NCBI RefSeq assembly: GCF_000013605.1 | Contig: NC_007908.1 | Location: 4,402,001 to 4,466,000, forward strand | Direction of reading: 5' to 3' | Length of the DNA stretch: 64,000 bases | DNA from: Rhodoferax ferrireducens T118 | Lineage (GTDB): Bacteria > Pseudomonadota > Gammaproteobacteria > Burkholderiales > Burkholderiaceae_C | Shown: in pieces, positions 34,684 through 62,986 of the stretch | How positions within the stretch are numbered: the first letter of the stretch is position 1 | Layout of the letters: each line of letters begins with the position of its first letter | Program-made: the position numbers and the translations under genes | The notes under the pieces: model-generated | Told to the model about the DNA's origin: nothing | The model's input: only the letters and a program-made list of their open reading frames with translations | Database searches by the model: none

Positions 34684-35835
34684 TCAAATCCGCCGTCGGA
34701 ACAGTAAAAAGGCAATCATCAACATCAGCGCTGAAAAACCCGCCAGTCGGCCGACTTGGGACAGTACGCTGGCGACGTCGCCGTTGCGGAGCAACACATT
34801 AAGCAAGCCTTCCAGACCCCAGTTCATGGGGGAGTAGGCTGCAATCTTTTGCATCACTGGAGGCATCACAAACAGTGGCACCATTACGCCGCCCAAGGCG
34901 GCCATCAGCACGTTGAGAATGGGGCCCAAGGTGGCGGCCTGCGCGTGGGTGCTGACGAGACAGGCTACGGTCAACGCCAGACTGACGGCGGCCAGACTGA
35001 TGGCCAACAGCATCAGCAGCAACGCGCCCCAGTCAATACCCTGAAGCGACAAACCTTCACCGCCGATCTGGGGCATAAGCCAGACACCGACCGCCAGCAT
35101 CAGCGCCGCCTGTACGCCGTTGACGGCCAGATAAGGAATAATTTTGCTCACGATCAACTGCCACGGCCTGGCACCCAGGCTGCGCAAGCGCGACAGGGCG
35201 CCGCATGCACGTTCTTCCACGAACAAGCCCGCGATAGAAGCCACCACAAAGAACATGCCGAATACAAGCCAGGCGGGCACGTTTTGCTGCACCGCAGTCG
35301 GGCGCGGCCCCACGCTCATGCGCTCCGCCGCCACGGGCGCGTCACCCGTCAGCGCGGAGGTATTCAGTTGGCGGGGCAGCTTGGCCAGCAGGCCTTCCAC
35401 ACGCAGTTGTGCGGCGATGGCGAGCAGACGCATGCGGTTGGTCGCGAACACGCTGTTGTCTAGACCGGGCTCGGTGAGCAGGCGCGCTTTGGCATCACCA
35501 TGACTGGCAAGGTCATCCATGACTTTGGAAAATCCCGCTTCAACCAGCAACACATATTTCAGGCGGCCGGCGCGCACTTCGTCTTGCCATTGTTCGGGCA
35601 ATGGCTGTGCGGCTCCTGCTTCCTGGGTCCAGCGTTCGATCAGTTTGTCGGCCGTTTTTCCTTGGTCCTGATTGACGACGGCGTAGGCCAGGCTCTTGGT
35701 AGCGGGGGTGTAGACGTCTTTCAGCGCCATCGACATGACGATGATGAACACCATCGGCATGATGAACAGCGCCCCCATGCCATGGATGTCGCGTGACAAC
35801 GCCAGCAGTTCTTTTTTCATCAAAGCCAGCAGCAT
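34684..35835 (-). CDS. ABC-2 type transporter permease of the pigment cluster
   Basis: 383 aa. One N-terminal membrane helix (GALFIMPMVFIIVMSMALKDVY), an extracytoplasmic region of about 170 residues, and five to six C-terminal helices give the YhhJ-like ABC2_membrane topology. The FVEERACGALSRLRSLGARPWQL element is the conserved cytoplasmic loop that couples to the ATPase. It follows the ATPase gene by 2 bp. Such exporter pairs accompany dialkylresorcinol/flexirubin genes in Bacteroidetes, and it probably moves a pigment lipid out of the inner membrane. Confidence 0.88.
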   Translation of the reverse strand: MLLALMKKELLALSRDIHGMGALFIMPMVFIIVMSMALKDVYTPATKSLAYAVVNQDQGKTADKLIERWTQEAGAAQPLPEQWQDEVRAGRLKYVLLVEAGFSKVMDDLASHGDAKARLLTEPGLDNSVFATNRMRLLAIAAQLRVEGLLAKLPRQLNTSALTGDAPVAAERMSVGPRPTAVQQNVPAWLVFGMFFVVASIAGLFVEERACGALSRLRSLGARPWQLIVSKIIPYLAVNGVQAALMLAVGVWLMPQIGGEGLSLQGIDWGALLLMLLAISLAAVSLALTVACLVSTHAQAATLGPILNVLMAALGGVMVPLFVMPPVMQKIAAYSPMNWGLEGLLNVLLRNGDVASVLSQVGRLAGFSALMLMIAFLLFRRRI

Positions 35836-35837
35836 GA

Positions 35838-36758
35838 TCAGTCTCGCAATGAGTGGTGTGTGAGCGACATGAACAATTGCTCCAAATCGGCGTGGCCAAA
35901 ACGCGCATGGCGGACCACCAGACCGGCCGCGTCCACGGCCGCGATGACGCCAGCCAAACTACGCCGTGACGCCAGCGTGAGCTGCACGCCCGTACCCAGC
36001 AGCGTGACGTCGCCAAAGGGTGACAGCAAGGATTGCAAGCGTTCTGGTTCATCGCCTTCAAGCGCCAATTGCAGCAACGTTCCGTTGGCGTTGAGCAGTT
36101 CGGCCAGGGGCCCTTTGATCAACACCCGGCCTTGATCAAGGATGACCACGCGATCGGCAATGGCCTGGACTTCTTCCATGTAGTGCGAGGTGTAAATCAC
36201 GGCACACCCATCCTGCGCCAGCTGTTTGATGGCTTGCAGTAAAAAAGCCCGCGATTGGGGGTCCACGCCGACGCTGGGTTCGTCGAACAACAACAACTCA
36301 GGACGGTGCAGCAAGGCAATCGCCAGATTGAGACGCCGCTTGAGACCGCCTGAGAGGCGATCTGCATGCACCGAGGCGTAGCGCTCCAGTTGTGCAAACG
36401 CCAGACATTCGGCAATGCGCAATTTTTTCTCGCTTCCCGACAGACTGCCCACGCCAGCAAAACAGGCGAGATTCTCGACCACGCTCAAGTTGGGATAAAA
36501 GGCGTACTCCTGCGGTGCCACGGCGATGCGCGTCGGCTGGCTGGCACGTACTACGGCCAGGGCTTGCTGGTCAATGGTAATGTCGCCGCTCTGTAGCGCC
36601 AGCAGTCCGCAGAGATGCGCAATGAGCGTTGTTTTCCCCGCTCCATTGGGGCCGAGCAAGCCCAGCACTTCGCCACGTTGAGCTTCAAACGAGACGTCAC
36701 TGAGCGCCGCGACATTCGCCGTCGGGTAGCGAAAATTCAGGTTGCGGATGGCCAGCAT
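35838..36758 (-). CDS. ABC transporter ATP-binding protein of the pigment cluster
   Basis: 306 aa. Walker [15 protein letters not shown] is near residue 33, followed by the Q loop ([14 protein letters not shown]), signature [12 protein letters not shown], Walker [18 protein letters not shown] and the switch His in [14 protein letters not shown]-terminal regulatory extension follows. It forms an exporter with the downstream permease. Its start codon overlaps the stop of the BtrH-like gene by one base, so the operon is tightly coupled. Confidence 0.92.
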
Positions 36759-37750
36759 CAGGCGACAGCGGTCTTGAGCGCCCGGAAAAATTCAGTCTCG
36801 CGCTCGGCTTGACCGCGCAACATGTCTGCCAGTTTTTTCGGTTCGAACGACTCACGGCCTTTGATCATGCGCGCGGCTTTCAAGGCGAATTCACGCCAGC
36901 CGTCGCCAGTTTCATTCAGGCGCTCCGACAGCACGGAGAGTTCAGTCAGGCCAGTGATTTGCGCGGCTTCCTGCAAGAACGCCGCGTAGATAAAACGGAA
37001 ACCCGCACCGCCGGTGCCGATTTCTTCCTGCATGCGCACGATGTGGCCAACATAGTTGAGACTGTGTTCCGAAGTGTCGAGCTTGGCCACCCGGTTGGCC
37101 AGCATGCGCATGCCTCGAACGCCAATCAGGGGAATGGGGCCCAGCATGATGCGTACGGTTTTTTTGATGGCACTTTTAACCGCTTCGGCTCTGACTTCCG
37201 TGCGGCCGACGCCTTCCAGAAAATACAGCAGGCCTTTGGGCGCGAGCGCCCCTTTGGCAAACCGGGCACGCTGCAGGTCGGCACTGGCGCAGCGTTGCGG
37301 CAGGTCTGCCACCGGGTCGCTGATCAGGTAATCATCGCCGTCTTTGCCGTACACCAGCAGGTTGTGGGCGTTGAAATGAAAGCGCATGTCTTCCGGAAAA
37401 TACGGCAGCCAGAACACCGAGGTTTGCAACCCGACCACTTGGCCTTGCGCCAGCAGCTCGTCGAGCCGACGCATACCGGCTTCAGGGGCGCGGAAGGTCT
37501 CAAAACGAAAGTGGGCCTGAAACGGTTTGCTCATGCCCTTGAGGATGAACTTGGGCGGCATGCGGTACGCAATGAGCGGGAAGCCGGTGAGTTTGATGAA
37601 CGGCAGGTAGGCGAAGGACAAGGCCGAAGACAGGCCAAAGGCCATCGCTTCAGACAGCTTCGCGCCGTGGTGCGTCATCAGGTTGGCGGCGGCACCGCTC
37701 TCGCAATGTGCCGCGTGACGATGCTGAAAAGGGGTCACGGTCGTGTTCAT
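36758..37750 (-). CDS. BtrH-like N-terminal domain protein (putative acyltransferase)
   Basis: 330 aa from MNTTVTPFQHRHAAHC; the open frame extends 56 codons upstream through unrelated sequence. Cys16 in HAAHCESGAA and the LSEAMAFGLSSALSFAYLP segment match the BtrH N-terminal (DUF4872-associated) domain. In butirosin synthesis BtrH transfers an acyl chain from an ACP to an amine through a cysteine. Homologues are regular members of dialkylresorcinol/flexirubin loci, so joining an acyl chain from ACP to another pigment moiety is a reasonable but untested role. The start overlaps the preceding small gene by 4 bp. Confidence 0.75.
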   Translation of the reverse strand: MNTTVTPFQHRHAAHCESGAAANLMTHHGAKLSEAMAFGLSSALSFAYLPFIKLTGFPLIAYRMPPKFILKGMSKPFQAHFRFETFRAPEAGMRRLDELLAQGQVVGLQTSVFWLPYFPEDMRFHFNAHNLLVYGKDGDDYLISDPVADLPQRCASADLQRARFAKGALAPKGLLYFLEGVGRTEVRAEAVKSAIKKTVRIMLGPIPLIGVRGMRMLANRVAKLDTSEHSLNYVGHIVRMQEEIGTGGAGFRFIYAAFLQEAAQITGLTELSVLSERLNETGDGWREFALKAARMIKGRESFEPKKLADMLRGQAERETEFFRALKTAVA

Positions 37751-38142
37751 GGTCGGGTTTGCAACTGGGCGGTGGTCAGCCCGAGCGCTTCGGCATACCG
37801 GGCCAGCAGGCGCGGTGATAGCTGCGAAAAACGCTGCGGATTGAAGTGGCGGCGAATACGCCATTGCCAGATGCCGCTGATTTGCGACAGCAGCGCCACA
37901 TCCATACGGCGGGCGCACATCCAGTACTCCAGCGGTGCGCTTTGACCCGCCAGCACACGCGTTTTGGCTTCTTCGGCCAGAGCATTCATGCGGTGTACCG
38001 CCTGCATCGTGACGGTCTCATCTACTTCCGATCCACGCGAGGGGACGATCACCATCATGCCCTCGGCATCCTTGGCGTACAGCGCCTTGCGATGACTGCC
38101 CAGCGTGCAATTGCCCTCTTGAGGCACGTCGTTCACGTCCAT
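37747..38142 (-). CDS. Small conserved pigment-cluster protein of unknown function
   Basis: 131 aa, soluble, no signal peptide. The N-terminal half contains short strands (ALYAKDAEGMMVIVPSRGSEVDE). The C-terminal half is helical and Arg-rich (MCARRMDVALLSQISGIWQWRIRRHF; SPRLLARYAEALGLTTAQL). I recognise no catalytic motif. It overlaps its neighbours on both sides (1 bp with the DarB-like gene, 4 bp with the BtrH-like gene), so it is a real operon member and perhaps an accessory subunit of one of them. Confidence 0.7.
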   Translation of the reverse strand: MDVNDVPQEGNCTLGSHRKALYAKDAEGMMVIVPSRGSEVDETVTMQAVHRMNALAEEAKTRVLAGQSAPLEYWMCARRMDVALLSQISGIWQWRIRRHFNPQRFSQLSPRLLARYAEALGLTTAQLQTRP

Positions 38143-39275
38143 CAGACGGCTTCCAAGAAGATGAAGCCGCTGGAGAATCGACCGCTTTCAGGGACGAACA
38201 TCAACAATTTGTGCCCTTTCTGGATGCGACCAGACTGAAACAGTTCGTCAAGCATGATGAAGGGAGAAGCAGAGCCTGTGTTGCCCTTTTGCACTAGATT
38301 GGTAAACCAGTTCTCGCGCGGGATGTTCAAACCGGCTTCTGCAACGCCATCAGCAGCAGGGTCAGCAAAGTAATTGGACGAGAAGTGTGGCAAGAACCAG
38401 TCGATCTGCTGTCCCGCCAGGTTGTGTTTCTTCACCAACTCCCGCAGGGGCTCGGTGAGTGTGGCGCGCACGACATGTTCATTAAGCAGTTTCACATCCT
38501 GCTTTACCGTGAACACTGAGCGCGCGGCGCATTCCTGACTTGAGAATAACTGCCAACCGGTCAAGGAATCATCGGCGTTCTTTTCCGCCCCGGAATACAT
38601 GCAAGGTGGCAGTTCATGGGCAGCGGAGGAGAGTTCCACCCACTGCACTTTCAGGCTCAGCGCGCCGTTGGGTTTATTTTCCAGCAGCACAGCGCCCGCA
38701 CCGTCAGACAGCATCCAGCGCAAGAAATCTTTCTCGAAAGCGATTTCGGGGCGTGCTTCCAACTCATTCACTTTGTGATCAAGTTCAGCGTCAAAGTTGC
38801 GGGCACGCAATGCCAGCGAGGCCATTTCGGAAGCCACGGCAACTGCACGCTGCGCGTCTCCCGCACGCACTGACAGCCAGGCATATTTGAAGGCAGCAGC
38901 CCCGGCCAGGCAGATGCCAGCCAACGAGACCACTTCCAGGCGAGGCCAACCCAAAGCGCCATGCACCATGACCCCATGCGATGGCATCAATTGATCAGGT
39001 CGCGAGGTGGCGGCAGCCAGGCAATCCACAGGGCCGAGGTCACCCAATGCGCGGACAGCATGCGCCGCCAGTTCGGCATTGGTCATAACCGGCTCGCCGG
39101 TGGTAGGGTCCAGCGCATAGTGACGACTCTGGATGCCGTTGTTACGCAACACAATGCGACGTGCCCGGGAAGGACGCCCGCCGACCATGCCGAGCACCGA
39201 CTCCATCTCGTCATTGCCCACGGGCAACAGTGGCAAATACGACGCTGTGCGCGTCAGGAAAACATCACAACTCAT
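38142..39275 (-). CDS. darB: Dialkylresorcinol-forming ketosynthase III (DarB-like)
   Basis: 377 aa from MSCDVFLTRTASYLP. It has a KASIII/thiolase fold with the Cys-His-Asn triad of that class: Cys122 in LAGICLAGAAAFKYAW, His in WFLPHFSSNYFADP, and Asn in KGNTGSASPFIML. DarB enzymes condense two beta-ketoacyl thioesters into a cyclohexanedione, the precursor of dialkylresorcinols. Its position next to a DarA-like gene strongly supports this role over fatty acid initiation. It overlaps the end of the DarA-like gene by 11 bp. Confidence 0.87.
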   Translation of the reverse strand: MSCDVFLTRTASYLPLLPVGNDEMESVLGMVGGRPSRARRIVLRNNGIQSRHYALDPTTGEPVMTNAELAAHAVRALGDLGPVDCLAAATSRPDQLMPSHGVMVHGALGWPRLEVVSLAGICLAGAAAFKYAWLSVRAGDAQRAVAVASEMASLALRARNFDAELDHKVNELEARPEIAFEKDFLRWMLSDGAGAVLLENKPNGALSLKVQWVELSSAAHELPPCMYSGAEKNADDSLTGWQLFSSQECAARSVFTVKQDVKLLNEHVVRATLTEPLRELVKKHNLAGQQIDWFLPHFSSNYFADPAADGVAEAGLNIPRENWFTNLVQKGNTGSASPFIMLDELFQSGRIQKGHKLLMFVPESGRFSSGFIFLEAV

Positions 39276-40254
39276 ACAAGGCCATCCTCTCGGTACCGGA
39301 ACCCGACGGTGCGTCAAATTTCTGCTTGAGCAATGCCATCTTCCGCTGCAAGAACGGCCGCAATACCGCCTGCATGAGCAAACTCAAGGGCACGACGCTC
39401 AGAATCAGCGTGATCAAAAAACATACATACAGAAGCAAAAAGGGACGGCGATGCCACTGTCCCGGCTCCCCCACGGTGCGCAGCAACTTGCCCCAGAGGT
39501 GGAAGCTTCGGGTGCCCGCCTTCTCGCTGAACAGCAGACTCGGATCAGAATCTGCCGCATTCAAACCGGTGAGCAAGGGCGCCGTGCCTCGCTCCTGGTC
39601 GTTTTGCAAGGCGTCACGCAACGCGAAGCCAAAGCGGCTCGCAGCTTTGATACTGGCCGCATCAATCCCGGCCGGTGGCAAACCCGGCAACAAGTCACGC
39701 TTGCCGCTGAGCAGCCACACCGGTGTGGTCAGCAGTGTGGTCATCGTGGAGCTGGGGTCGACCATGGCCACGTTGTCGAGCAAACGTGCACCGCAGGCAG
39801 CCAGCAAACTTTTCGTTTTCTCCTGCGCCAGCATCCACATATTGCGACAGGCAATGACGGTCACCACCGGCTTGCCCATCAACAGCTTTTTGGCCAGCGG
39901 GTGTTTGAGAAAGGCGGTGATGGGCAAGGACGGGGCGAGAAACCAGACCTGGTAGGGCAGGATCACCAGATCGAAGTCCTCGTCACCCGTCAGGGACAAA
40001 GGGTGCAACGATGGCGCCACCATTTGGGCAGATTCAGGAAAGGCATCAAGAAAGCTGAAAAATCGCCACGGAAACGGATAAGGATGGACTGGTCGCAAGG
40101 TCTCGATGTGAACGCTGAAGTGAGGACATTGCTGCAGCGGCGCTACGATACTCTGCGTGATCTCGGCCAGTTGCCCGGTTTGCGAGTAAGACAAAACCAG
40201 AATGCGCTTGATAGAGGCTCGGGTTGGGGTTTTGATTGTGTTCAATGGAGCCAT
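39265..40254 (-). CDS. darA: Dialkylresorcinol aromatase / condensing enzyme (DarA-like)
   Basis: 329 aa. The N-terminus IKRILVLSYSQTGQLAEITQ has the flavodoxin-type FMN phosphate-binding loop, and PFPWRFFSFLDAFPES is a hallmark of the DarA family. Further FMN-site strands appear at LVILPYQVWFLAPSLP and PVVTVIACRNMW. A C-terminal membrane helix (LLLYVCFLITLILSVVPLSLLM) anchors it to the inner membrane. DarA is described as oxidising the DarB product to the resorcinol. It is upstream of darB in the operon. Confidence 0.85.
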   Translation of the reverse strand: MAPLNTIKTPTRASIKRILVLSYSQTGQLAEITQSIVAPLQQCPHFSVHIETLRPVHPYPFPWRFFSFLDAFPESAQMVAPSLHPLSLTGDEDFDLVILPYQVWFLAPSLPITAFLKHPLAKKLLMGKPVVTVIACRNMWMLAQEKTKSLLAACGARLLDNVAMVDPSSTMTTLLTTPVWLLSGKRDLLPGLPPAGIDAASIKAASRFGFALRDALQNDQERGTAPLLTGLNAADSDPSLLFSEKAGTRSFHLWGKLLRTVGEPGQWHRRPFLLLYVCFLITLILSVVPLSLLMQAVLRPFLQRKMALLKQKFDAPSGSGTERMALYEL

Positions 40255-40340
40255 CTAACTGCAAAGACATCCATCCTTGATGGATATTGAAAAAGTAGTA
40301 TGGCTATTATCGTTCCAAGCATGGGTCACTCCCGGCTTGA

Positions 40341-40892
40341 CTATGCCAGGTGCGCAACATGGGCCACAGGCATCCAGGCGGCAAAAGTGGCCGCAGAATC
40401 ATGTTTTTCCGGCGCATCAGGACGAAGCCTCAACCAATTGCTGGAACCACCCTCCGTTTCGTCGACACAGCCCAGCAGCACACCGCCACGTCCGGTCTGC
40501 ACACTTGCCAGACGCAGCAAGTCCTGCGGCAGCGCGGCCGCGAGAAAGCAGGCGTGACCGGTCCAATCCATTTGGGCCGCCAGCAAAGCCAGCAATTGAC
40601 TCGGCTGTGTCTGCAAGAACGTCAGTGGCATGGGCAAACCGTCACACATCTGCGCCAGGGCGCTGTCGGTTGCGGCATAGGTGCCGCGGCGGCTGGTCAG
40701 CAGCAATATCGCATCTGAGGGCAACGTCTTTTCACCGGCATCAGTCATGCAACGCAATGCGCCATACAGACCCAGCTCCGCCCAGGTGCCGATACGACGG
40801 GGCTTGGCACCCAGCAATTGGGCGAGTTGTTCACGCCAATCGGCAGGCGGTGGGGCGGCGATGCAGCGTCCGCTGACTGTAAGGTGACTCAT
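40341..40892 (-). CDS. Short ketosynthase-like (chain-length-factor-like) protein
   Basis: 183 aa. LPSDAILLLTSRRGTYAATD, PMPLTFLQTQPSQLLALLAA and DWTGHACFLAAALPQDLLRLA in sequence trace the N-terminal lobe of a condensing enzyme. The active-site cysteine and the histidine half are absent. It overlaps the stop of the full ketosynthase gene by 4 bp, the usual layout of a KS/chain-length-factor pair. I infer that it dimerises with that ketosynthase; no direct motif proves it. Confidence 0.65.
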   Translation of the reverse strand: MSHLTVSGRCIAAPPPADWREQLAQLLGAKPRRIGTWAELGLYGALRCMTDAGEKTLPSDAILLLTSRRGTYAATDSALAQMCDGLPMPLTFLQTQPSQLLALLAAQMDWTGHACFLAAALPQDLLRLASVQTGRGGVLLGCVDETEGGSSNWLRLRPDAPEKHDSAATFAAWMPVAHVAHLA

Positions 40893-41950
40893 GTGCGCTC
40901 CAACACCACCGTGGCATGCCCGCCGCCGAATCCAAGGATAGTCGCCATGACACGGCGAACCGCATCCGGCTGGTGTGCCATGAAATTGACGCCCAAGGTT
41001 TCATCCACCGAATCAGCATACGTCGGCCACACACCTTGTTCCAGGCAGGCGGTAAGCAAGGCAACTTCTGCGGCCCCGGATGCACCCATGGTGTGTCCGA
41101 TGGCCATCTTTAGCGAAACCAGGGGCGGGATAACTTGAAACATGTCACGCAAGCCTTGCGCCTCAATGGCATCGTTGCCCGGACTGCCCGCGGCCTGTAC
41201 CTTGACTAGGTCGATGGCCTGCGCAGCCAAACCACATTGCGCCAAAGCACTTTGGTACATGTTCACAATGGCAAGGGCTGAGGCGCTGGTCGGCTGCCGA
41301 CCATCCACCACGTTGGCACCCCCGAGCATTTGCCAGGGCGAGTTTTGGTGGTTGGAGAGACGTAATGCAGCAACCGCTTCACCCAGGACCAGACCGTTGC
41401 GATCCTGGCCAAAAGGTTTGCTGCGATCTGGCGAGAGCAATTGCAAGGCGGCAAAACCACCCAAAGTCAGTTGGTTGCTCAGTTCTACACCCAGTACCAA
41501 GGCATCCTCCACCTCGCCGCTGCGGAGCAAGGCATGTGCCGCCATCATGGCGTTGAGACTGGAGGTGCAGGCCGTGCTGAGCACATACACCGGCCCGCGC
41601 CACTGCAACCAGCTGGCGACCTTGTCGGCGAAGGCCTGGTAATCCATGCCTGCGGCACCCTGCTCCACGGCACCGATGTCAAACGACGATGTGGCAATGA
41701 ACAAGGCCCCGTCACAGGCCCGTTCGGCCCCGGCCTCCAGGGCGACCCGCCGAATAAGCGTGCAGGCGCGCTCATTCCAGTCACTCTGGGTATCAGCTAT
41801 GGCACGATAAGGAAAACTGGGGGCTGACTCACCAGGCAAAACACAGGTGGCAGCCGTGTCACTCCCTCGGGACAAGGCCGTCAACGACGTTTTCACCGTC
41901 AAACCCAGCGCACAGGCCAGCCCACGGCCCGCGAGATAGACCGGTTTCAT
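40889..41950 (-). CDS. Beta-ketoacyl-ACP synthase with substituted first catalytic histidine
   Basis: 353 aa, KAS I/II fold. The nucleophile is intact (Cys128 in LSTACTSSLNA), and the second histidine and glycine-rich loop are intact (His286 in KMAIGHTMGASG). The first histidine of the HGTGTxxND motif is replaced: the stretch reads VQAAGSPGND, with Ala254 where His is expected. It could still accept acyl chains but should be impaired in decarboxylation, unless partner residues compensate. It lies in the DAR operon between its own ACP and a KS-like partner, overlapping both by 4 bp. Confidence 0.85.
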   Translation of the reverse strand: MKPVYLAGRGLACALGLTVKTSLTALSRGSDTAATCVLPGESAPSFPYRAIADTQSDWNERACTLIRRVALEAGAERACDGALFIATSSFDIGAVEQGAAGMDYQAFADKVASWLQWRGPVYVLSTACTSSLNAMMAAHALLRSGEVEDALVLGVELSNQLTLGGFAALQLLSPDRSKPFGQDRNGLVLGEAVAALRLSNHQNSPWQMLGGANVVDGRQPTSASALAIVNMYQSALAQCGLAAQAIDLVKVQAAGSPGNDAIEAQGLRDMFQVIPPLVSLKMAIGHTMGASGAAEVALLTACLEQGVWPTYADSVDETLGVNFMAHQPDAVRRVMATILGFGGGHATVVLERT

Positions 41951-42219
41951 GTCGGTTGATGCGTGCGCAGATACTCAGCCAAGGCCAACAACGAGACCAT
42001 CGCGCGACGCGTGTCTTTGCTGTCGGGCATGCGCACGCGGTACTTTTTTTGAATCGCCATGGAAATCTGCAGGGCATCGAGTGAATCGAGATCCAACCGG
42101 GACTCTGACCCGAACCACGGCTCGTCGTCGCGCAGTCCATCGGCAGGTTCTGTCTTATCCACGGCAGAGAGGATGTACGCTTTTAATTCGGAGCGGAATG
42201 CAATGTCGTGTTCGTTCAT
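41947..42219 (-). CDS. Acyl carrier protein of the dialkylresorcinol operon
   Basis: 90 aa from MNEHDIAFRSELK; seven more upstream codons are open. The phosphopantetheine site is Ser46 in RLDLDSLDALQIS, followed by helix III (MAIQKKYRVRMPDSKDTRR). It overlaps the ketosynthase start by 4 bp. The second residue of the classical DSLD motif and the acidic surface around it are typical of type II systems. It probably carries the beta-ketoacyl chains that DarB condenses. Confidence 0.88.
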   Translation of the reverse strand: MNEHDIAFRSELKAYILSAVDKTEPADGLRDDEPWFGSESRLDLDSLDALQISMAIQKKYRVRMPDSKDTRRAMVSLLALAEYLRTHQPT

Positions 42220-42365: not shown

Positions 42366-43034
42366 TCAGCGCACCGACTGCAGTTTGCGATCAAACCACC
42401 TGGAGCTCCAGGCAAACACGATTCCCAGTGCGGTACCGGCCAGCACATCCAGCGACACATGCTGCTTGGTGGCCATGGTGGAGTACAAAATAGCAACGCC
42501 CCACAACATCTGAATCGACTGCGCGCGCCACCCCAGGCGCACCTCCCACATCAACCAGTACAGCCAGAAACTCGAATACACCGCCGCCGCCACGTGCAGC
42601 GATGGACAAGCATTACCAGCCGCATCCACCGCTTTGAGAAAAGCCACGCTTGGATACTGCGCCCAATCGATGTCGGCCGGTGGCACGGCGTTGGGCCACC
42701 AGTAAAAAATGGCCAGGGCGAACAAGCACATGAGGCCAATCCAGACACCAAAGTTCAGCAGCCGGGTGCGCGCAGGCATCAACATCACGGGCAACGAACA
42801 ATAAATCCACAGAGACAAATAGGGAACCAGCGCCAACGGCAAAAAACCGATCCACCGGTCCACCACCGTCAGCGGCATGGTGGTGACGGGGAACACGGGG
42901 TTCTTCAGCAAAAAAAGGTAGGCCCAGAAAAAAACCGACATGAATGCACTGGTGCCAAAAAATTTGAACCAGAAATCATTCAGGAAAATCGCGCGCCAAT
43001 CGACAACAGGCGGGGGAGAAAAATCAGAGGGCAT
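42366..43034 (-). CDS. PAP2-family membrane phosphatase
   Basis: 222 aa with about six membrane segments. The phosphatase motifs are partly visible: NACPSLHVAAAVYSSFW (PSxH) and KQHVSLDVLAGTALG (the terminal HxxxD). The N-terminal KxxxxxxRP motif is not obvious. Relatives dephosphorylate lipid phosphates or act in inositol phosphoceramide-type transfer at the periplasmic face. It is first in the minus-strand operon, 147 bp before the ACP, and divergent from the aryl polyene operon. Confidence 0.83.
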   Translation of the reverse strand: MPSDFSPPPVVDWRAIFLNDFWFKFFGTSAFMSVFFWAYLFLLKNPVFPVTTMPLTVVDRWIGFLPLALVPYLSLWIYCSLPVMLMPARTRLLNFGVWIGLMCLFALAIFYWWPNAVPPADIDWAQYPSVAFLKAVDAAGNACPSLHVAAAVYSSFWLYWLMWEVRLGWRAQSIQMLWGVAILYSTMATKQHVSLDVLAGTALGIVFAWSSRWFDRKLQSVR

Positions 43035-43481: not shown

Positions 43482-44122
43482 CCCGCCTCACGCGGCTCCT
43501 GGTGTTTGCGGTAATTGCCATCGCAGGCGCTGCGTACCTGGCTTTCAGCCACCTGTTGACCATCAACGAACACCCCAGCTTGCTGATGCTGGCACTGGGG
43601 GTGACCCCTCTGACCGTCATGGCCTTGCTCGCTGCCTGGCATTCCCGCATGCGCTGGTTGGCCCTGACCCTGCTTGCGGCACTGGCGCTCACCGTGCTGT
43701 TGTATCTTGGTGCCCTGCGCAACCACGTCAACTGGCTGTATTTCATGCAACATGCCGGCGCCATGTCGCTGCTGGCCCTCACCTTTGGCAGCACACTGGG
43801 GCGTGGCGATGCCGAGGCTCTGTGCTCACGTGTCACACGCCTGATGCTGCCTGGCCCGGTTGATCCAACCTACATGCGCTACACATGGAAGGTCACGCTA
43901 GTCTGGACCGTGTACTTTGTGACCAGTGGGGTGGTGTCGGTAGGCCTGTTTTTCTGGGGGCCGATTACCGTCTGGTCCTACTTTGCCAACCTGCTCACTC
44001 CGGTCTTCGTCGGGCTGATGTTTGTCATTGAATACCTGGTGCGGGTGCGGGTACTGCCTGATCGCGCCCACTTCAGCATCGCCCAGACCATCCAGGCCTA
44101 TCGTTCCTATGAGCAACGCTGA
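43478..44122 (+). CDS. Aryl polyene cluster integral membrane protein (COG4648-like)
   Basis: 214 aa, GTG start coupled to the ACP stop. There are about six hydrophobic segments, including [58 protein letters not shown] and LLTPVFVGLMFVIEYLVR. Proteins like this (COG4648) are constant members of aryl polyene loci, usually next to an ACP and an AMP-ligase. Their role is unknown; they may anchor or organise the synthase at the membrane. Confidence 0.8.
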   Translation: MTRLTRLLVFAVIAIAGAAYLAFSHLLTINEHPSLLMLALGVTPLTVMALLAAWHSRMRWLALTLLAALALTVLLYLGALRNHVNWLYFMQHAGAMSLLALTFGSTLGRGDAEALCSRVTRLMLPGPVDPTYMRYTWKVTLVWTVYFVTSGVVSVGLFFWGPITVWSYFANLLTPVFVGLMFVIEYLVRVRVLPDRAHFSIAQTIQAYRSYEQR

Positions 44123-44717
44123 CATGCCCTCACAACCCTTGCATCGCCTGAAACTGCTCACCGCCATCGTCGGCATGGCGCTGTGCGCCAGCAGCTACGG
44201 CGCAGACTGGGCACTGCCCGATCTGATGCATTCGCTGGCCCAGAAGAAATCCGGCAAAGCCAGCTTTGTCGAAAAAAAATACATCGGTATTCTGGACAAG
44301 CCACTGGAATCTTCCGGTGAACTGTCTTTTGAAGCGCCGAATCGCCTGGAAAAACGCACCCTCAAACCCCACCCGGAAATCATGCTGCTGGACGGCGACA
44401 AGCTGACCGTCACCCTGCATGAAAAGCAACCACTCTACCTGCGTCTGCAGGACCACCCAGAGTTGGCCGCTGTGGTCGACAGCATTCGCGGTACCCTCAG
44501 TGGTGACCAGGCCGCGCTGGAAAAAAACTACACCATCGAATTCACCGGCGTGCAAAACAAATGGCAACTGACCCTGACACCGGTGCAAAAAGCCGTGACC
44601 AAGGTGGTGAGCCAAATCCGTATTGGGGGTGCCGATGCAGCCATCAAGACCATCACATTTGATCAGATCGACGGTGACCGCTCTGAAATGACCATCTCCA
44701 AAGTTGTTGCACCTTGA
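44109..44717 (+). CDS. LolA-like periplasmic carrier of the aryl polyene cluster
   Basis: 202 aa, with an alternative start 15 bp downstream (MPSQPLHRLKLL). It has a signal peptide ending near ASSYG-ADW. The mature chain follows the LolA fold: GKASFVEKKYIGILDKPLESS, then FEAPNRLEKRTLKPHPEIMLLDG in adjoining strands, and VQKAVTKVVSQIRIGG late. LolA carries lipoproteins across the periplasm; cluster-specific versions are thought to carry the pigment lipid to the outer membrane. The MMPL exporter encoded 6 kb downstream is the likely donor. Confidence 0.82.
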   Translation: MSNADMPSQPLHRLKLLTAIVGMALCASSYGADWALPDLMHSLAQKKSGKASFVEKKYIGILDKPLESSGELSFEAPNRLEKRTLKPHPEIMLLDGDKLTVTLHEKQPLYLRLQDHPELAAVVDSIRGTLSGDQAALEKNYTIEFTGVQNKWQLTLTPVQKAVTKVVSQIRIGGADAAIKTITFDQIDGDRSEMTISKVVAP

Positions 44718-45722: not shown

Positions 45723-46916
45723 GTGCAGCCACTCTTAATAAATACATTCACAACCACCACCGCGTTGGGGCGTGGCCTTACCGACACATTGAGTGCACTG
45801 CGCGCGCAACGCAGCGGCTTGCAGGCACGTTCCTGGGAGACGGTGGACCTGCCCACTTGCCTGGGCGAGGTTGATGGCCTGGATGCCATCAACCTACGCG
45901 CCGACATGCAAGCATTCGACTGCCGCAACAACCGCCTGGCCCAGCTCGCTCTGGAACAGGACGGTTTCATGCAGAGTGTGCAAACCGCAGCAGAACACTA
46001 TGGCCGACAACGCATCGGCGTATTTCTGGGCAGCAGCACATCGGGCATCCTGAGTTCAGAGCAAGCTTATCGCCAGCGTGACCCGGTCAGCGGTGCCCTG
46101 CCTGCCAGTCACAGTTACCGGCATACCCACAACATGTTCTCCGTGGCGGATTTCGTGCGCCATTACGCCGATCTGCAAGGGCCTGCGTGTGTGGTCTCTA
46201 CCGCCTGCTCATCCAGCGCCAAAGTATTTGGCATCGCCCAGCGCATGATCGGCTGCGGCCTGATTGATGCTGCCGTGGTGGGGGGTGTCGACTCCCTGTG
46301 CCTGACCACTGTCTACGGCTTCAATTCACTGCAATTGATATCCAACCGCCCCTGCATGCCCTTTGATGCCCAGCGCGACGGCATTTCGATTGGTGAGGGC
46401 GCGGCCTTCATCTTGCTTGAACGTGCCGATCAGGCCCAGACAGATGACCTCCTGCTCAGTGGTGTCGGCGAGTCCAGCGATGCGCACCACATGTCATCGC
46501 CCCACCCCGAGGGACGGGGTGCGCGCCTGGCCATGCAAGCTGCCCTGGACATGGCAGGGCTGCAGCCGCAGACCATTGGCTATATCAACCTGCACGGCAC
46601 GGCCACTCCCAGCAACGACGCGGTCGAAGATCTAGGGGTGACCGCAGTGTTCGGCACAAACACCCCCTGCAGCTCTACCAAGGGTCACACCGGCCACACC
46701 TTGGGAGCCGCCGGCAGTGTGGAAGCCGTGATCTGCGCGTTGGCGCTACGCCATGATTTTTTACCCGGCGGTGTCGGCACCCGCACCCCCGATCCACGCC
46801 TGCATTGCAATTACCTTTTGACAAACCAGGAGCAGGCCATTACCCACGCACTGAGCAACTCCTTTGGTTTTGGCGGCAGCAATTGCAGTTTGCTGTTCTC
46901 CCGGAAAAGGGCATGA
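45723..46916 (+). CDS. Aryl polyene ketosynthase (ApeO-like)
   Basis: 397 aa, GTG start. All three catalytic residues are present: Cys162 in VVSTACSSSAK, His291 in NLHGTATPSND, and His325 in KGHTGHTLGAAG. It is followed with a 4-bp overlap by a cysteine-less KS-like protein, the ApeO/ApeC (KS/chain-length factor) arrangement of known aryl polyene synthases. The pair should elongate the aryl-primed chain with malonyl-ACP units. A 155-bp gap upstream, with a GCCATT/AATGGC hairpin at 45627-45642, could hold a promoter or partial terminator. Confidence 0.9.
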   Translation: MQPLLINTFTTTTALGRGLTDTLSALRAQRSGLQARSWETVDLPTCLGEVDGLDAINLRADMQAFDCRNNRLAQLALEQDGFMQSVQTAAEHYGRQRIGVFLGSSTSGILSSEQAYRQRDPVSGALPASHSYRHTHNMFSVADFVRHYADLQGPACVVSTACSSSAKVFGIAQRMIGCGLIDAAVVGGVDSLCLTTVYGFNSLQLISNRPCMPFDAQRDGISIGEGAAFILLERADQAQTDDLLLSGVGESSDAHHMSSPHPEGRGARLAMQAALDMAGLQPQTIGYINLHGTATPSNDAVEDLGVTAVFGTNTPCSSTKGHTGHTLGAAGSVEAVICALALRHDFLPGGVGTRTPDPRLHCNYLLTNQEQAITHALSNSFGFGGSNCSLLFSRKRA

Positions 46917-53785: not shown

Positions 53786-53815
53786 TCAATGACCACCGTA
53801 AAAAAAGGGCACCAC

Positions 53816-54292
53816 ATGCACATCACACACACCTGCAAACGATGCTTGATCGGTCTGTTGCTGGGTGCCAGCGTATGGGCGTCTGCCATTGCGGCGGAAA
53901 CAGATGACAGCCCAGTCAACAGTTGCCTGAACGCCTGGGGAAAACACCCTTTCGGGAAAAATCCTCCATACAAAACACTCTCCACCTCGGTCAAGGTGTT
54001 CGGCATCGGCCCCGACACCGCCGACACCGAAGTCACACAAACTCCCGCGCTGGTTCTGGTCAATCCCGGCGTCAACGTTGCGGGCGGTTCGGTCGTGCAG
54101 GTGCTTAACCCCAATGGCTGGTACTGCTTTCGGACCACTGTCAGCGTCATGGGGGGGGTGACCATCAAAGCCCATTGCAAATCGCACCTGGCCACCACGG
54201 CTGGTGACGTGCTGGCGGGCGCAAACGCCTCTGACGGCAAAGGCGTGACCGTCCTGGGAACGACCCAAGTGGAACGCGTCGGGTGTGATTGA
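53816..54292 (+). CDS. Cluster-embedded exported protein of unknown function
   Basis: 158 aa when started behind AAAAAAGGG (MHITHTCKRCLIGLL); an ATG nine codons earlier is also in frame. A signal peptide is predicted to end at IAA-ETDD. The mature part is beta-rich (TLSTSVKVFGIG, TPALVLVNPGVNVAGGSVVQVL, VSVMGGVTIKAHC) and has four cysteines. No family is recognised. Its place inside the aryl polyene operon, between the hydrolase and the second chain-length factor, suggests a periplasmic or outer-membrane role with the pigment. Confidence 0.65.
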   Translation: MHITHTCKRCLIGLLLGASVWASAIAAETDDSPVNSCLNAWGKHPFGKNPPYKTLSTSVKVFGIGPDTADTEVTQTPALVLVNPGVNVAGGSVVQVLNPNGWYCFRTTVSVMGGVTIKAHCKSHLATTAGDVLAGANASDGKGVTVLGTTQVERVGCD

Positions 54293-54298: not shown

Positions 54299-55099
54299 AT
54301 GAGTACACCAACCATCTACCTCGACGGTGTCGGCGTGTTCGGCCCCGGCCTTGCCGGTTGGGCGCAAACCTGTGAAGTGCTGGCCGGCCGCCAGCCCTAT
54401 GCGGCTGCGCCCACTGCCCTGCCCGCCGTTGAAAAGCTCCCTCCCGCCGAACGCAGACGGGTGGGCATGCCCGTCAAACTGTCAATGGCCATCGGCTTGG
54501 AGGCGGCACGCCATGCCGGGGCTGACCTGGCCAACCTGGCCACCGTGTTTTCCTCAACCGAAGCCGATTGCGACAACTCCCATGCCATTCTGGAAGCCCT
54601 GGCCTCCAGCGACCGCGCCCTGTCCCCAACCCGCTTTCACAACTCGGTGCACAACGCGGCATCCGGCTACTGGGGCATCGCCACCGGCAGCATGCAACCC
54701 AGCACCAGCCTGAGCGCCTTTGATGCTACCTTTGCCGCCGGGCTGCTGGAAGCCACCACCCAAGCCAACAGCAGCGGCCAACCTTGCCTGCTGCTGGCCT
54801 ATGACACAACCTATCCCGAACCTCTGCACAGACTGCGGCCCATTCCTGCTGCCATGGGGGTGGCCCTGATCCTCAACCCCTGCCAGACTCCGGCAGCACT
54901 GGCGCAGTTCAAGATAAGCTTCAGCGACGCACCGGCAACCCACCTGCCCCAGGACGACCTGGAGCATTTGCGCCAGAGCATTCCGGTGGCCCGCAGCCTG
55001 CCTGTGCTGGCCCTGCTGGCACAAGGCCGCAGTGGATCGGTGGTGGTGGACTACCTGGACACGCTGCGCCTGGGCATCGAAGTCTGCAACATCGCCTGA
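54299..55099 (+). CDS. Chain-length-factor-like KS protein, copy 2
   Basis: 266 aa and clearly paralogous to the ApeC-like protein at 46913, sharing LPPAERRRVG, SPTRFHNSVHNAASGYW, PSTSLSAFDATFAAGLLEA and YDTTYPEPLH almost residue for residue. Like that copy it has no catalytic cysteine. No full KS gene lies directly before it; the ketoreductase follows after 3 bp. It may pair with another of the cluster's ketosynthases and give a different chain length, or be a redundant duplicate. Confidence 0.82.
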   Translation: MSTPTIYLDGVGVFGPGLAGWAQTCEVLAGRQPYAAAPTALPAVEKLPPAERRRVGMPVKLSMAIGLEAARHAGADLANLATVFSSTEADCDNSHAILEALASSDRALSPTRFHNSVHNAASGYWGIATGSMQPSTSLSAFDATFAAGLLEATTQANSSGQPCLLLAYDTTYPEPLHRLRPIPAAMGVALILNPCQTPAALAQFKISFSDAPATHLPQDDLEHLRQSIPVARSLPVLALLAQGRSGSVVVDYLDTLRLGIEVCNIA

Positions 55100-55102: not shown

Positions 55103-55843
55103 ATGAATATCGAATCAACACCTACGAGGCGCGCCCTGGTCACCGGTGGCAGTGGAGCCATCGGCGCGGCGATCTGCCGCCGCCTTGCTGCCGACGGTCT
55201 GCATGTGATCGTGCACGCCAACAGCCATCTTGCCAGTGCCCAAAGCCTGTGCGACGAGCTGCAAAACAGCGGCGGCTCGGCGCAGGCCGTTCAGTTTGAC
55301 GTGACCGACAGCAACGCCACTCAGACTACCCTGGAAGCCCTGCTGGAAGACGGCCCGATCCAGGTGCTAGTGAACAATGCCGGCATCCATGATGATGCCG
55401 TCTTTCCCGGCATGCAGCGCCAGCAGTGGCACCGGGTGATTGATGTGTCGCTGCACGGTTTTTTCAACGTCACACAGCCACTGTCCATGCCCATGATCCG
55501 CAGCCGCTGGGGCCGCATCATCAGCATTTCTTCGATTGCCGGCCTGACCGGCAACCGTGGTCAGACCAACTACGCCGCCGCCAAGGGCGCGTTACACGCG
55601 GCCAGTAAATCACTCGCGCTGGAGCTGGCCACACGCGGCATCACCGTCAACGCCGTGGCCCCCGGCATCATCAGCTCAGACATGACCAAAGATGTTTTTG
55701 ACAGCACCGCCATTGCCAACCTGGTGCCCATGAAACGCGCCGGCAAACCGGAAGAAGTGGCCGCCCTGGTGGGTTTCCTGGCCTCAGACAGCGCGGCTTA
55801 CATCACAGGCCAGGTCATTTCAGTCAACGGCGGCATGGCTTGA
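55103..55843 (+). CDS. 3-oxoacyl-ACP reductase (FabG/ApeQ-like)
   Basis: 246 aa SDR. The cofactor motif is TGGSGAIGAAI (15-24), then NNAG at 91-94, catalytic Ser143/144 in ISISSIAG, Tyr157 and Lys161 in NYAAAKGA, and a VNGGMA end. At the position of the usual catalytic Asn (as in FabG VxxxNL) it has Ser116 (VIDVSLHGFFN), as I recall for some aryl polyene reductases. It should reduce the beta-keto group after each condensation with NADPH. It follows the second chain-length factor closely. Confidence 0.93.
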   Translation: MNIESTPTRRALVTGGSGAIGAAICRRLAADGLHVIVHANSHLASAQSLCDELQNSGGSAQAVQFDVTDSNATQTTLEALLEDGPIQVLVNNAGIHDDAVFPGMQRQQWHRVIDVSLHGFFNVTQPLSMPMIRSRWGRIISISSIAGLTGNRGQTNYAAAKGALHAASKSLALELATRGITVNAVAPGIISSDMTKDVFDSTAIANLVPMKRAGKPEEVAALVGFLASDSAAYITGQVISVNGGMA

Positions 55844-55856: not shown

Positions 55857-56993
55857 ATGCCACACCACCCCCTGAGTACCCGCACCCAACGCACGGTGGA
55901 CAGCCCCGCCGAATTTGCTGCCTGCCGCGACCGGTTTTTTACCCGCCCACTGTCCGACACCATGCTGCGCTGGTGTTTTCCTGAGCTGTCCCGGCAGGCC
56001 GTCGTCGAGCAGACCAATGCCTTTCGCGGCACCGAGGAGTTCCAGTTCGCCTACGTCAACCCGATGCTGCAGCGCATTCTCAAAGAGACCTCACAGGGCC
56101 TGAGCATTTCCGGCCTGGACCAGCTGCCGACTGACCGCAAATTTCTCTTCATCTCCAACCACCGCTGCATCGTCATGGACGCTGCACTGGTTTCACTGAA
56201 CCTGCTGTCCAGCGGGCGGGGCACCTGCAAGGTGTGTGTGGGCGACAACCTGATGGACACCCCCGGTGTGGCCGAGCTGATGCTGCTGCTCAATGGTGTG
56301 GTCATCAAGCGCAGCGGCGCACGCCGCGACGTGTATGCCAAGGCCCAGCAGACAGCCGCCTACCTGGCACGACAAATTGAAGAGCAGCGCTATTCCGTCT
56401 GGTTGTCGCAAAGTCCGGGCCGCACCAAAGACGGCAACGACCACACCGACCCGGCCATCATCAAGATGCTGGCTCTGGCAGGCGACAAAACCCGCGCCGA
56501 TTTTGAGAAACTGCACATTGTTCCGGTCGCCATCTCCTACGAATTCGAGCCCTGCGCCACCCACAAGGTGCGCGAAACACTGCTGCGGCTCCAGCATGGC
56601 AAGTACCACAAGGCCGCTGACGAAGATGTGGCACAAATCCGGGACAGCGTGACTGCGAACAAAGGCCATATCCATCTGGCCTTCGGCAAGGAAATCCGCC
56701 TGGACGGTGCACACAGCGCCGATGCAGTGCAAGAAGTCGCTGACAGGATCGATGCGCAAATCTGGAGCATCTATCGCGCCTGGGACAGCAACCGGATCGC
56801 CCATGCCCTGCTGACCCAAGACAACTGGGACCTGGACACACCTTACGCACAAGCATTCCTGGGTCTGATTGCGAATCAGGTAGCGGAGTTGACCGCAATG
56901 GGGTTGCCCAGCGTCCCGGCGCGCGAAGCACTTCTGCAACTGTATGCACAACCGGTCTTCAACGCACGGCGCGCAGCCGCTTCCCGCACCTAA
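55857..56993 (+). CDS. 1-acylglycerol-3-phosphate acyltransferase-like protein
   Basis: 378 aa, longer than PlsC. The active-site region is FISNHRCIVMDAALVSL, where the relatives I recall read NHRDI; here Cys replaces the first Asp and the His-Asp spacing is HX5D. A second block, GVVIKRSG, and the EEQRYSVWLSQSPGRTKDG block replace the usual EGTR motif with SQSPGRTKDG. The family attaches acyl chains to glycerol or sugar hydroxyls. It ends the plus-strand run and converges with the methyltransferase gene, overlapping it by 4 bp. Confidence 0.8.
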   Translation: MPHHPLSTRTQRTVDSPAEFAACRDRFFTRPLSDTMLRWCFPELSRQAVVEQTNAFRGTEEFQFAYVNPMLQRILKETSQGLSISGLDQLPTDRKFLFISNHRCIVMDAALVSLNLLSSGRGTCKVCVGDNLMDTPGVAELMLLLNGVVIKRSGARRDVYAKAQQTAAYLARQIEEQRYSVWLSQSPGRTKDGNDHTDPAIIKMLALAGDKTRADFEKLHIVPVAISYEFEPCATHKVRETLLRLQHGKYHKAADEDVAQIRDSVTANKGHIHLAFGKEIRLDGAHSADAVQEVADRIDAQIWSIYRAWDSNRIAHALLTQDNWDLDTPYAQAFLGLIANQVAELTAMGLPSVPAREALLQLYAQPVFNARRAAASRT

Positions 56994-59427: not shown

Positions 59428-59430
59428 GCG

Positions 59431-60952: not shown

Positions 60953-61213
60953 ATGTTATTTGATCAAATCAAGAATTATTTAGTGGAGACGGCAGGTGTT
61001 GATCCCCAGCAATTTGAGAATCCGGAATTGAAAATTGCTGATCTGGAACTGGATTCCCTCGGTTTGATCGAAATGTTATTTGAAGTCGAAGACAAATACG
61101 GCTTCCAAATTCCGGACCCCATGGTTTTTTTGCCTATGACCTTTGCCGGGATGGTGACTGCCATCGAAGCCATGGTGCAGGAACACACCAAGCTCCAAAC
61201 CGCCCTCAACTGA
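60953..61213 (+). CDS. Acyl carrier protein of the third operon
   Basis: 86 aa starting MLFDQIKNYLVETAG; the much longer open frame upstream reads through the promoter region and is rejected. Ser35 in LELDSLGLIEMLFEVE is the phosphopantetheine site. This is the third ACP in the locus. It precedes a KS and a FabZ-like gene, which together would be a compact module for building or priming an acyl chain. Confidence 0.9.
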   Translation: MLFDQIKNYLVETAGVDPQQFENPELKIADLELDSLGLIEMLFEVEDKYGFQIPDPMVFLPMTFAGMVTAIEAMVQEHTKLQTALN

Positions 61214-61223
61214 TCCCCGCTCC

Positions 61224-62486
61224 GTGAACAAAGTCGTTGTCACCGGCTCGGGTGTCATTTGCCCTCTGGGTGCCGACAAGGCCAGCGCTTTTGCGGCCGC
61301 CTTGGAAGCCCGCAGCGGCATCGGTGGTTGCCCCGCAGACATTGCCGCCAGGCTCCCTCATGTGGTGGTGGCGCAAGCCAGTGTTGACCCGCAAACCCTG
61401 CTGGAACGTGCTGACCAGGGGCTTGACCGTGCCACCCAATTTGCACTCGTGGCCACCGCGCAAGCCATTGCCGAGGCTGGTTTTACCTGCCCTCCCACGG
61501 ATTCGCGCCGCGTCGGTGTCTTTGTGGGCATTGGTTTTGGCGGCTCGCAAACCAGTAACAGCTTGTACGAACGCTTTTACACCACGTTGCTCGACCCCAA
61601 TCTGAAGCACAAAGACCCCACCGTCATGCATCCGCTCACGGTGCCACGCGTCATGGCCAATGCGGCCGCTGCCGCCATCACCATGCGCTACAAGCTGCAC
61701 GGCCCCAGCAACACCTATTCGGTGGCCTGCGCCTCATCGGCCATTGCCATCGGTGAAGCTTACCGGGCCATCCGCCATGGCTATTTGGACGCAGCGGTGG
61801 TGGTTGGCACCGAAGCCATGCTCAACGCCGGGGCCATGCTGGGCTGGAACGCATTGCGCGTCATGGCCAAGGCGGACGCCAGCGACCCCTCTCGCAGCTG
61901 CCGCCCATTCTCCAGCGGTCGCAGCGGATTTGTGATTGGCGAAGGTGCCGCCGCCCTGGTGCTGGAGAGCGCCACCCGCAGCACCCAGCGCGGTGCCCGG
62001 GTGCTGGCCGAGTTGGCCGGTTACGGCTGCAGCAGTGACGCACAGCATCTAACTGCCCCCAGTGTCGATGGTCAAGCCCACGCCATGCAGCAAGCGCTGC
62101 AGGAAGCCGGTCTGGCCCCGGAACAAATTCAATACATCAATGCCCATGGCACCGCCACCGATGCCGGTGATGTGACCGAAACCCAATCCATCCACCAAGC
62201 CTTTGGCCCTGCGGCCCGCCTGGTTGCCGTGAGTTCAACCAAATCCATGCACGGGCATCTGATTGGTGCCACCGGGGCGCTGGAACTGGCGCTGAGCATT
62301 GAGGCGCTCAACAGCGGCTCCCTGCCGCCCACTGCCCACCTCGACAAACCCGATCTACGCTGTGATCTGGACTACATCCCGCTGCGAGCACGCCACGGCT
62401 GCCAGGTGGACGCGGTGATGTCGAATTCCTTCGCCTTTGGCGGCAGTAATGTGTCACTGATCGCTCGCCGGTTTGCTGCGCCATGA
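61224..62486 (+). CDS. FabF-like beta-ketoacyl-ACP synthase (third operon)
   Basis: 420 aa, GTG start 10 bp after the ACP stop. The triad is intact: Cys169 in SVACASSAIAIG, His308 in NAHGTATDAGD, and His345 in KSMHGHLIGATG. The protein matches standard FabF length and glycine motifs (FAFGGSNVSL near the end). Its stop overlaps the FabZ-like gene by 4 bp. It is the fourth full ketosynthase of the KAS I/II type in the locus and a candidate for starter or side-chain elongation. Confidence 0.92.
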   Translation: MNKVVVTGSGVICPLGADKASAFAAALEARSGIGGCPADIAARLPHVVVAQASVDPQTLLERADQGLDRATQFALVATAQAIAEAGFTCPPTDSRRVGVFVGIGFGGSQTSNSLYERFYTTLLDPNLKHKDPTVMHPLTVPRVMANAAAAAITMRYKLHGPSNTYSVACASSAIAIGEAYRAIRHGYLDAAVVVGTEAMLNAGAMLGWNALRVMAKADASDPSRSCRPFSSGRSGFVIGEGAAALVLESATRSTQRGARVLAELAGYGCSSDAQHLTAPSVDGQAHAMQQALQEAGLAPEQIQYINAHGTATDAGDVTETQSIHQAFGPAARLVAVSSTKSMHGHLIGATGALELALSIEALNSGSLPPTAHLDKPDLRCDLDYIPLRARHGCQVDAVMSNSFAFGGSNVSLIARRFAAP

Positions 62487-62986
62487 CGCAGTTCATTCCT
62501 GAATTTCCATTCACCCTGGACCGCCGGGCCATTGAACAATTACTGCCCCACCGTGGGCCGATCTTTGCCTGCAAGCAGTTGATCGCGCGGGGCCCGCGCG
62601 CCTACACGGCCATTGCCAACTGGCCACTGGACAACGCTGTGGTCCAGGGACACTTCCCCGGCTTTCCGCTGGTGCCCGGAGTCATGCTGATTGAATCGGT
62701 GACCCAACTTGCCGGGGCCGGCTTGCTCAGTGCCGACAGCTACGTGCAGTCCCTGCCCAATGAACGTATTGGTGTGCTGGCATCGGTGCGGCGTTGTGCC
62801 TTCAAGCGCCCGGTGCAGCCGGAACAGGATGTCACGTTTGAGATCACCTGCCGCCAGATCGGTGCGGATGCCGTGCAGGTGAATGCCCAGGCCCTGGTAG
62901 ATGGCATTGAAGTGGCCCAACTGGAAACCCTGATGGTCTACGCCGACAAAACGCAGTTTTCCGCCGTCATGGGGTGGGCCGCCTGA
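62483..62986 (+). CDS. FabZ-like 3-hydroxyacyl-ACP dehydratase
   Basis: 167 aa. IEQLLPHRGPIFACKQL and GHFPGFPLVPGVMLIESVTQLAG are the FabZ landmarks, with the catalytic His in GHFPGFP and the Glu in LIES. It is slightly longer than FabZ at both ends. With the preceding ACP and KS it could run a fatty-acid-like cycle dedicated to the locus. It is the last gene of the pigment region; 37 bp later the DUF3014 gene ends on the other strand. Confidence 0.9.
   Translation: MTQFIPEFPFTLDRRAIEQLLPHRGPIFACKQLIARGPRAYTAIANWPLDNAVVQGHFPGFPLVPGVMLIESVTQLAGAGLLSADSYVQSLPNERIGVLASVRRCAFKRPVQPEQDVTFEITCRQIGADAVQVNAQALVDGIEVAQLETLMVYADKTQFSAVMGWAA

Follow-up and report, generated by a model that had tools for sequence, protein, structure and literature searches.

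A candidate aryl polyene-dialkylresorcinol ester locus at a variable chromosomal site in Rhodoferax ferrireducens T118

Main

The chromosome of Rhodoferax ferrireducens T118 carries a 28.6 kb block of pigment genes at approximately positions 34420-63008 of the stretch analysed here (64,000 nucleotides of contig NC_007908.1, hereafter the window), in which a minus-strand dialkylresorcinol (DAR; genes, dar) operon (34684-42240) lies head-to-head with an aryl polyene (APE) type II polyketide synthase locus that starts at 43215, diverges from the dar operon and runs to 62986. All open reading frames (ORFs) of the block are present and uninterrupted, and comparison with relatives places sharp edges at both of its ends. 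The host genome (4.97 Mb, two contigs) is listed at 100% completeness, the named homologues of window proteins come from Giesbergeria, Simplicispira and Rhodoferax, which are all Comamonadaceae, and no tRNA was found within the window.

Pigments of this class have been described before. In the consulted portions of the literature, to which all of our citations refer, Azoarcus sp. BH72 makes an APE-DAR ester named arcuflavin, clusters of a similar kind occur in Dechloromonas, Variovorax and Sideroxydans, and of 39 genomes listed 16 have dar clusters, nine of which lie inside or next to polyene genes (PMC3949708, published in 2014). The same paper gives arcN as a polysaccharide deacetylase and counts arcB, an XanB2-type chorismatase, among the arcuflavin genes. 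Because the arcuflavin ester and arcN are published, neither the betaproteobacterial APE-DAR pigment type nor its NodB gene is new; an earlier note on this DNA had singled out the NodB deacetylase as distinguishing, a claim that fails given its presence in both arcuflavin (arcN) and flexirubin (flxP-flxU) clusters (PMC3949708, PMC3992019). In itself, a cluster for an already described pigment class is unremarkable, and it is the comparison with relatives that carries weight. New here is a single chromosomal site that is found empty, with a plain APE cluster or with an APE-resorcinol ester cluster within one genus. We put at roughly three in four the probability that the block makes an APE acid esterified to a 2,5-dialkylresorcinol, that it is one state of a fixed pigment site, and that its dar operon has been exchanged independently of the APE genes.

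Results

The earlier note had described dar genes head-to-head with a full APE type II polyketide synthase, and the gene content (Table 1) bears this out, with DarB and DarH passing their family models and keeping their catalytic residues. DarB matches the StlD structure 5gk0 in PDB at 443 bits, and across 76 aligned sequences its catalytic Cys and Asn are present in all and its His in 75, the remaining one having a gap. In DarH, Cys16, His129 and Asp145 are identical in 75 of 75 sequences and would form the catalytic set. DarA has no match among Pfam or NCBIfam models, but 2681 of 8000 scored candidates are homologues of it, and the only informatively named one among the best 120 is a 'dialkylresorcinol condensing enzyme'. 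With DarA, DarB, DarH and the APE set side by side, an APE-DAR ester is well supported by gene content as the product.

Table 1 Genes of the pigment block and its two neighbouring flank genes, in window coordinates (KS, ketosynthase; CLF, chain-length factor).
Position	Strand	Feature	Evidence
33713..34459	-	Left flank gene, outside the cassette	87-89% identity in G582, adjoining plain APE cluster
34684..35835	-	ABC-2 permease, dar operon	PF12698, 118 bits
35838..36758	-	ABC transporter ATPase, dar operon	PF00005, 105 bits
36758..37750	-	DarH, BtrH-related acyltransferase, likely ester-forming	NF053550, 482 bits (cut-off 300)
37747..38142	-	DarG family protein	NF053536, 160 bits (cut-off 70); flexirubin_DarG, 107 bits (under cut-off 170)
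38142..39281 (frame open to 39317)	-	DarB, ketosynthase/cyclase	NF005293 StlD/DarB, 596 bits (cut-off 450)
39265..40254	-	DarA, flavodoxin-like aromatase/condensing enzyme, beside DarB	Homologue names
40341..40892	-	DarK-like protein, function unassigned	No Pfam/NCBIfam match
40889..41950	-	DarJ-like ketosynthase	PF00109/PF02801
41947..42240	-	DarC-like acyl carrier protein	DSLD serine motif; NF006617, 36.7 bits (under cut-off 70); no Pfam match
42366..43034	-	PAP2-family membrane protein	PF14378
43215..43481 (start not fixed)	+	APE acyl carrier protein	PF00550
43478..44122	+	APE-set protein	No Pfam match; homologues at equivalent place in relatives
44109..44717	+	LolA-like carrier	PF19574, 73.8 bits
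44714..45568	+	NodB-type polysaccharide deacetylase	PF01522, 93.8 bits; class as arcN
45723..46916	+	KSa, APE ketosynthase	PF00109/PF02801; PDB 6qsp_A, 268 bits
46913..47707	+	CLFa, CLF-like (Ketoacyl-synt_2)	PF13723, 126 bits
47698..48168	+	Putative dehydratase, hotdog unconfirmed	No Pfam match; comes after KS in relatives
48165..49511	+	AMP-binding ligase, likely activating aryl starter	PF00501
49802..50722	+	LpxL-like (lipid-A-type) acyltransferase	PF03279
50719..53073	+	MMPL exporter	PF03176
53057..53785	+	Alpha/beta hydrolase	PF00756, 26.6 bits; present in G452 and G523 APE clusters
53789..54292	+	Secreted protein, function unassigned	No family match
54299..55099	+	CLFb, CLF-like (Ketoacyl-synt_2)	PF13723, 107 bits; PDB 7f28_A, 6qsp_B
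55103..55843	+	Ketoreductase	FabG NF004200, 373 bits (cut-off 273); FlxB, 286 bits (under cut-off 340)
55857..56993	+	Acyltransferase	PF01553, 40.6 bits
56990..57859	-	Class I methyltransferase, may methylate aryl ring	PF13847, 81.9 bits
57868..58656	-	Family 2 glycosyltransferase	PF00535, 74.7 bits
58660..59427	-	Phospholipid/glycerol acyltransferase	PF01553, 55 bits
59431..60690	-	KSb, FabF-like ketosynthase	TIGR03150, 397 bits (under cut-off 494)
60971..61213 (start not fixed)	+	Acyl carrier protein	PF00550, 30.7 bits
61224..62486	+	KSc, FabF-like ketosynthase	PF00109/PF02801
62483..62986	+	FabA-like hotdog dehydratase	PF07977, 46 bits
63024..63902	-	Right flank gene, outside the cassette	90-91% identity in G585, adjoining plain APE cluster

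Within the genus, an APE-type AMP ligase scoring at least 339 bits occurs in 14 of 89 genomes, and DarA in two of the 89 (T118 and G567), both among these 14. The flank genes of T118, searched for in 60 genomes (a set that did not include G616), lead to the same chromosomal site in relatives. G585 has a plain APE cluster on a single contig between the T118 right-flank gene (90-91% identity) and the left-flank genes (87-96%), G582 has one between the left-flank gene at 33713 (87-89%) and right-flank DNA (82%), and in G594 both cluster ends are seen, next to left-flank genes of 86-96% identity and right-flank DNA of 81%. These three clusters share site and core genes with T118, but no dar gene matches were found in them and their APE proteins are 35-76% identical to those of T118. 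In G616, approximately 400 bases and no pigment gene lie between the left-flank gene of 33093 and right-flank DNA, and the APE cluster of this genome sits on a different contig. With a plain APE cluster in three genomes of the genus and none in a fourth at the same site, the block acts like a cassette that can be swapped. Descriptively, GC content at third codon positions is 69% in the dar genes (7 genes), 72% in the APE genes (12 genes), 80% in the left flank (5 genes) and 77% in the right flank (1 gene).

These arrangements suggest that a simpler pigment cluster stood here before the block replaced it. The competing account, in which the block entered a site that had been empty, in an event separate from the plain APE clusters and without any exchange, draws on the cluster-free site of G616 and on the position of T118, which is not firmly nested among its plain-APE relatives. 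T118 shares one clade with G582, G585 and G594 at full support, yet it falls inside the plain-APE relatives with rpoB (84) and outside them with the upstream genes (70), while the concatenate gives 53; this conflict, which weighs against our reading as does the split of the G594 cluster over two contigs, leaves replacement and a second insertion at the site indistinguishable by the tree. The edge gene at 33713 is common to T118 and G582, the one at 63024 to T118 and G585, and the 30 kb compared around the empty G616 site contain neither of them (the rest of that genome was not searched). This distribution would be expected had T118 retained the borders of an earlier insertion; it favours replacement over fresh insertion, and we regard independent insertion as somewhat unlikely. 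Relatives in the empty, plain and ester states also form a ready-made comparison series for the contribution of the resorcinol ester to an aryl polyene.

The two halves of the block appear to have separate histories. Loci L003, L014 and L015 share the APE lineage of the window, with 71-90% identity over the common APE genes, and L015 is identical to the G567 contig across its 14285 bases. For all 12 genes common to the four loci we divided the window-L015 distance by the window-L003 distance, a ratio in which the gene-specific rate cancels. It ranges from 2.31 to 4.24 in the four dar genes and from 0.98 to 1.48 in the eight APE genes, with no overlap, and the pooled values are 2.63 (95% interval 2.24-3.09) for dar versus 1.19 (1.07-1.33) for APE. 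Measured by APE genes, L003 and L015 are thus about equidistant from the window, whereas by dar genes L015 is 2.3-4.2 times farther away. The switch between modules lies between 42240 and 42366, and the PAP2-family protein sides with the APE module by its divergence (ratio 1.17). This pattern suggests that the dar operon was exchanged independently of the APE genes.

The branches that split the dar genes of the window, L002, L003, L013-L015 and L021 have supports of 99.5/100 and 99.9/100, and for KSa the reverse constraint, placing the window and L003 with the Gallionellaceae-type loci, is rejected (p = 4e-6). Against independent exchange stand the approximately unbiased (AU) test, by which a single dar clade of these same loci is not rejected (p = 0.108), and the small base of the module ratio, which comes from three comparison loci. 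An apparent rejection of the single clade (AU p = 0.002) was set aside, as its constraint lacked L021; the higher value is obtained once L021 is included. In a ten-taxon topology test both trees were equal and, being unrooted, unable to tell the hypotheses apart. The DarB tree, which is midpoint-rooted and contains no Bacteroidota sequences, groups the window with DarBs of Gallionellaceae, Nitrosomonadales and Rhodocyclales (94/96) and apart from Variovorax, a position inside the dialkylresorcinol clades that agrees with the earlier note. Two of the five more distant outgroup ketosynthases in this tree sit on a long branch (2.9) next to the Campylobacterota DarBs, which makes the depth of the tree unreliable. 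The Variovorax and Xenophilus DAR loci have homologous dar genes, with DarA 56-62% identical to that of T118.

In the consulted portions of PMC4256081, APE clusters show no major sub-cluster transfer except the inclusion of dar genes in some CFB bacteria, and the divergence between dar and APE genes seen here would run against that generalisation. We consider it moderately probable that the site is fixed and has at least three states (empty, plain APE and ester), that cassettes are exchanged whole, and that the dar operon is in turn a unit exchanged on its own, separating from the polyene genes at the junction located above.

Discussion

The term flexirubin-like ester used in the earlier note stands as far as an APE-DAR ester goes, but 'flexirubin-type' is too specific: no ammonia-lyase is found and flexirubin cut-offs are missed. 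No member of the aromatic ammonia-lyase family PF00221 was detected in the complete T118 genome (the control matched in 5 of 14 genomes), nor any of the XanB2-type chorismatase family PF21168, for which the control was silent and the model matches 30 of 250 genomes of the order. UbiC is present in T118 at 76 bits. Since neither family was detected and UbiC is there, 4-hydroxybenzoate is the most likely starter, and the missing starter genes of known pathways predict an ester pigment begun from it, a combination not described in the consulted portions of PMC3949708, PMC3992019 and PMC4256081. It counts against this call that it rests on two absent families and that another source of 3-hydroxybenzoate or coumarate is possible.

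Arcuflavin proper, with a 3-hydroxybenzoate start and a 3-methoxyphenyl polyene, is the nearest described pigment. Its producer is likewise a betaproteobacterium with a dar operon and xanthomonadin-like APE genes, and its near-matching gene list shares with T118 the deacetylase, LolA, acyltransferases, glycosyltransferase, AMP-ligase, methyltransferase and a BtrH-like protein (PMC3949708). Unlike the single block of T118, the two arc loci of Azoarcus are unlinked, and they include a predicted halogenase and the chorismatase ArcB, whereas T118 has no chorismatase match even though the PF21168 model works in the order. We think it unlikely that T118 makes arcuflavin itself.

The two operons could also make two separate pigments, a plain APE and a free dialkylresorcinol, with no ester formed. 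They are distinct units, each with its own carrier proteins and exporters, and DAR loci elsewhere are often seen with few polyene genes. In a scan of genome contigs, 239 stretches fitted the pattern and 206 of them encode a DarA relative; among the best 80 of these, 21 have at least three APE genes in the stretch available for each locus and 59 have fewer, the 21 including none of the Variovorax/Xenophilus loci. The length of these stretches limits the comparison, however, as 27 of the 80 extend for under 8 kb on one side; in the 53 with at least 8 kb on both sides, APE genes are seen in 10. Azoarcus, moreover, makes its ester from unlinked clusters (PMC3949708), and T118 has a DarH-family acyltransferase with intact residues. 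Separate pigments are, in our judgement, improbable. In 12 of the 21 APE-bearing loci every APE match lies on the strand opposite DarA.

A true flexirubin locus from Bacteroidota that makes a coumarate-started flexirubin is very improbable: the flexirubins of Chitinophaga pinensis and Flavobacterium johnsoniae are likewise DAR esters of a polyene acid made with DarA and DarB, and their clusters share the two-part logic, deacetylase (flxP-flxU), LolA, glycosyltransferase and exporter (PMC3992019), but their starter comes from tyrosine via the ammonia-lyase family that is absent from T118, DarB groups with betaproteobacterial DarBs in the tree described above, which contains no Bacteroidota sequences, and the window proteins score below the flexirubin-specific models for DarG and FlxB (Table 1) and below the DarB exception model (462 bits, cut-off 550). 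The last point is tempered by the models themselves, as those for DarB and DarG are also missed by the five DarB and four DarG proteins of Proteobacteria and Campylobacterota scanned and so seem to be tuned to a different lineage.

What can be read directly from the DNA is family membership, intact motifs, adjacency and the absence of the flexirubin-starter family; the chemistry of an APE-DAR ester that we would build on them is predicted throughout. UbiC would provide 4-hydroxybenzoate, which the AMP-ligase would load onto the APE carrier protein, and KS/CLF, ketoreductase and dehydratase would lengthen this starter into a polyene, with the aryl ring possibly methylated by the methyltransferase. 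In parallel, DarB would condense two fatty acyl intermediates and DarA would aromatise the resorcinol ring. DarH would then transfer the polyenoyl chain to the resorcinol, and the product would probably leave through the MMPL, LolA-like and ABC proteins.

Further observations

The earlier note had pointed to a second CLF as distinctive, and this is upheld: T118 has two CLF-like paralogues against at most one in each other examined locus within the fetched stretches, bearing in mind that the L003 contig stops before the position of the second. CLFa has an 81% identical counterpart at the equivalent place in L003 and none between KS and dehydratase in L014 and L015. PDB entry 6qsp, which we take to be an aryl polyene KS-CLF pair, is matched by KSa in its chain 6qsp_A and by CLFb in its chain 6qsp_B. 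The hydrolase and the secreted protein, in contrast, lose the distinctiveness claimed for them and are ruled out as dar-linked genes, as both occur in the APE clusters of G452 and G523, which have no dar genes in the compared stretches. In those clusters the secreted protein comes after the ketoreductase; it has 492 homologues among 802 candidates, and its structure model (mean pLDDT 75) gave no PDB fold match at E<=0.001. Of two hotdog proteins proposed, the FabA-like one is confirmed by Pfam and the one that follows CLFa is not, and for the proposed dar acyl carrier protein the serine motif is there but the family models are missed (Table 1).

In the DarJ-like ketosynthase, Gln replaces the first active-site His that KSa, KSb and KSc keep, and the same position holds Gln in 70 of 74 related loci and His in four; with this change the enzyme may serve in decarboxylation or priming. 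The frame of the DarK-like protein is found again in 67 of the 80 DarA loci. Across the family, DarB at 550 bits or more occurs in 9 of 299 genomes, T118 counted, and one genome in that search (G456) has two DarB-type matches, at 610 and 350 bits.

Elsewhere in the window, a small protein at 18689-19168 looks SET-domain-like by eye, and two ORFs at 23565-25302 look by eye like lipoprotein or secreted proteins, beside a patch of low GC content (0.50 at 24001-26000).

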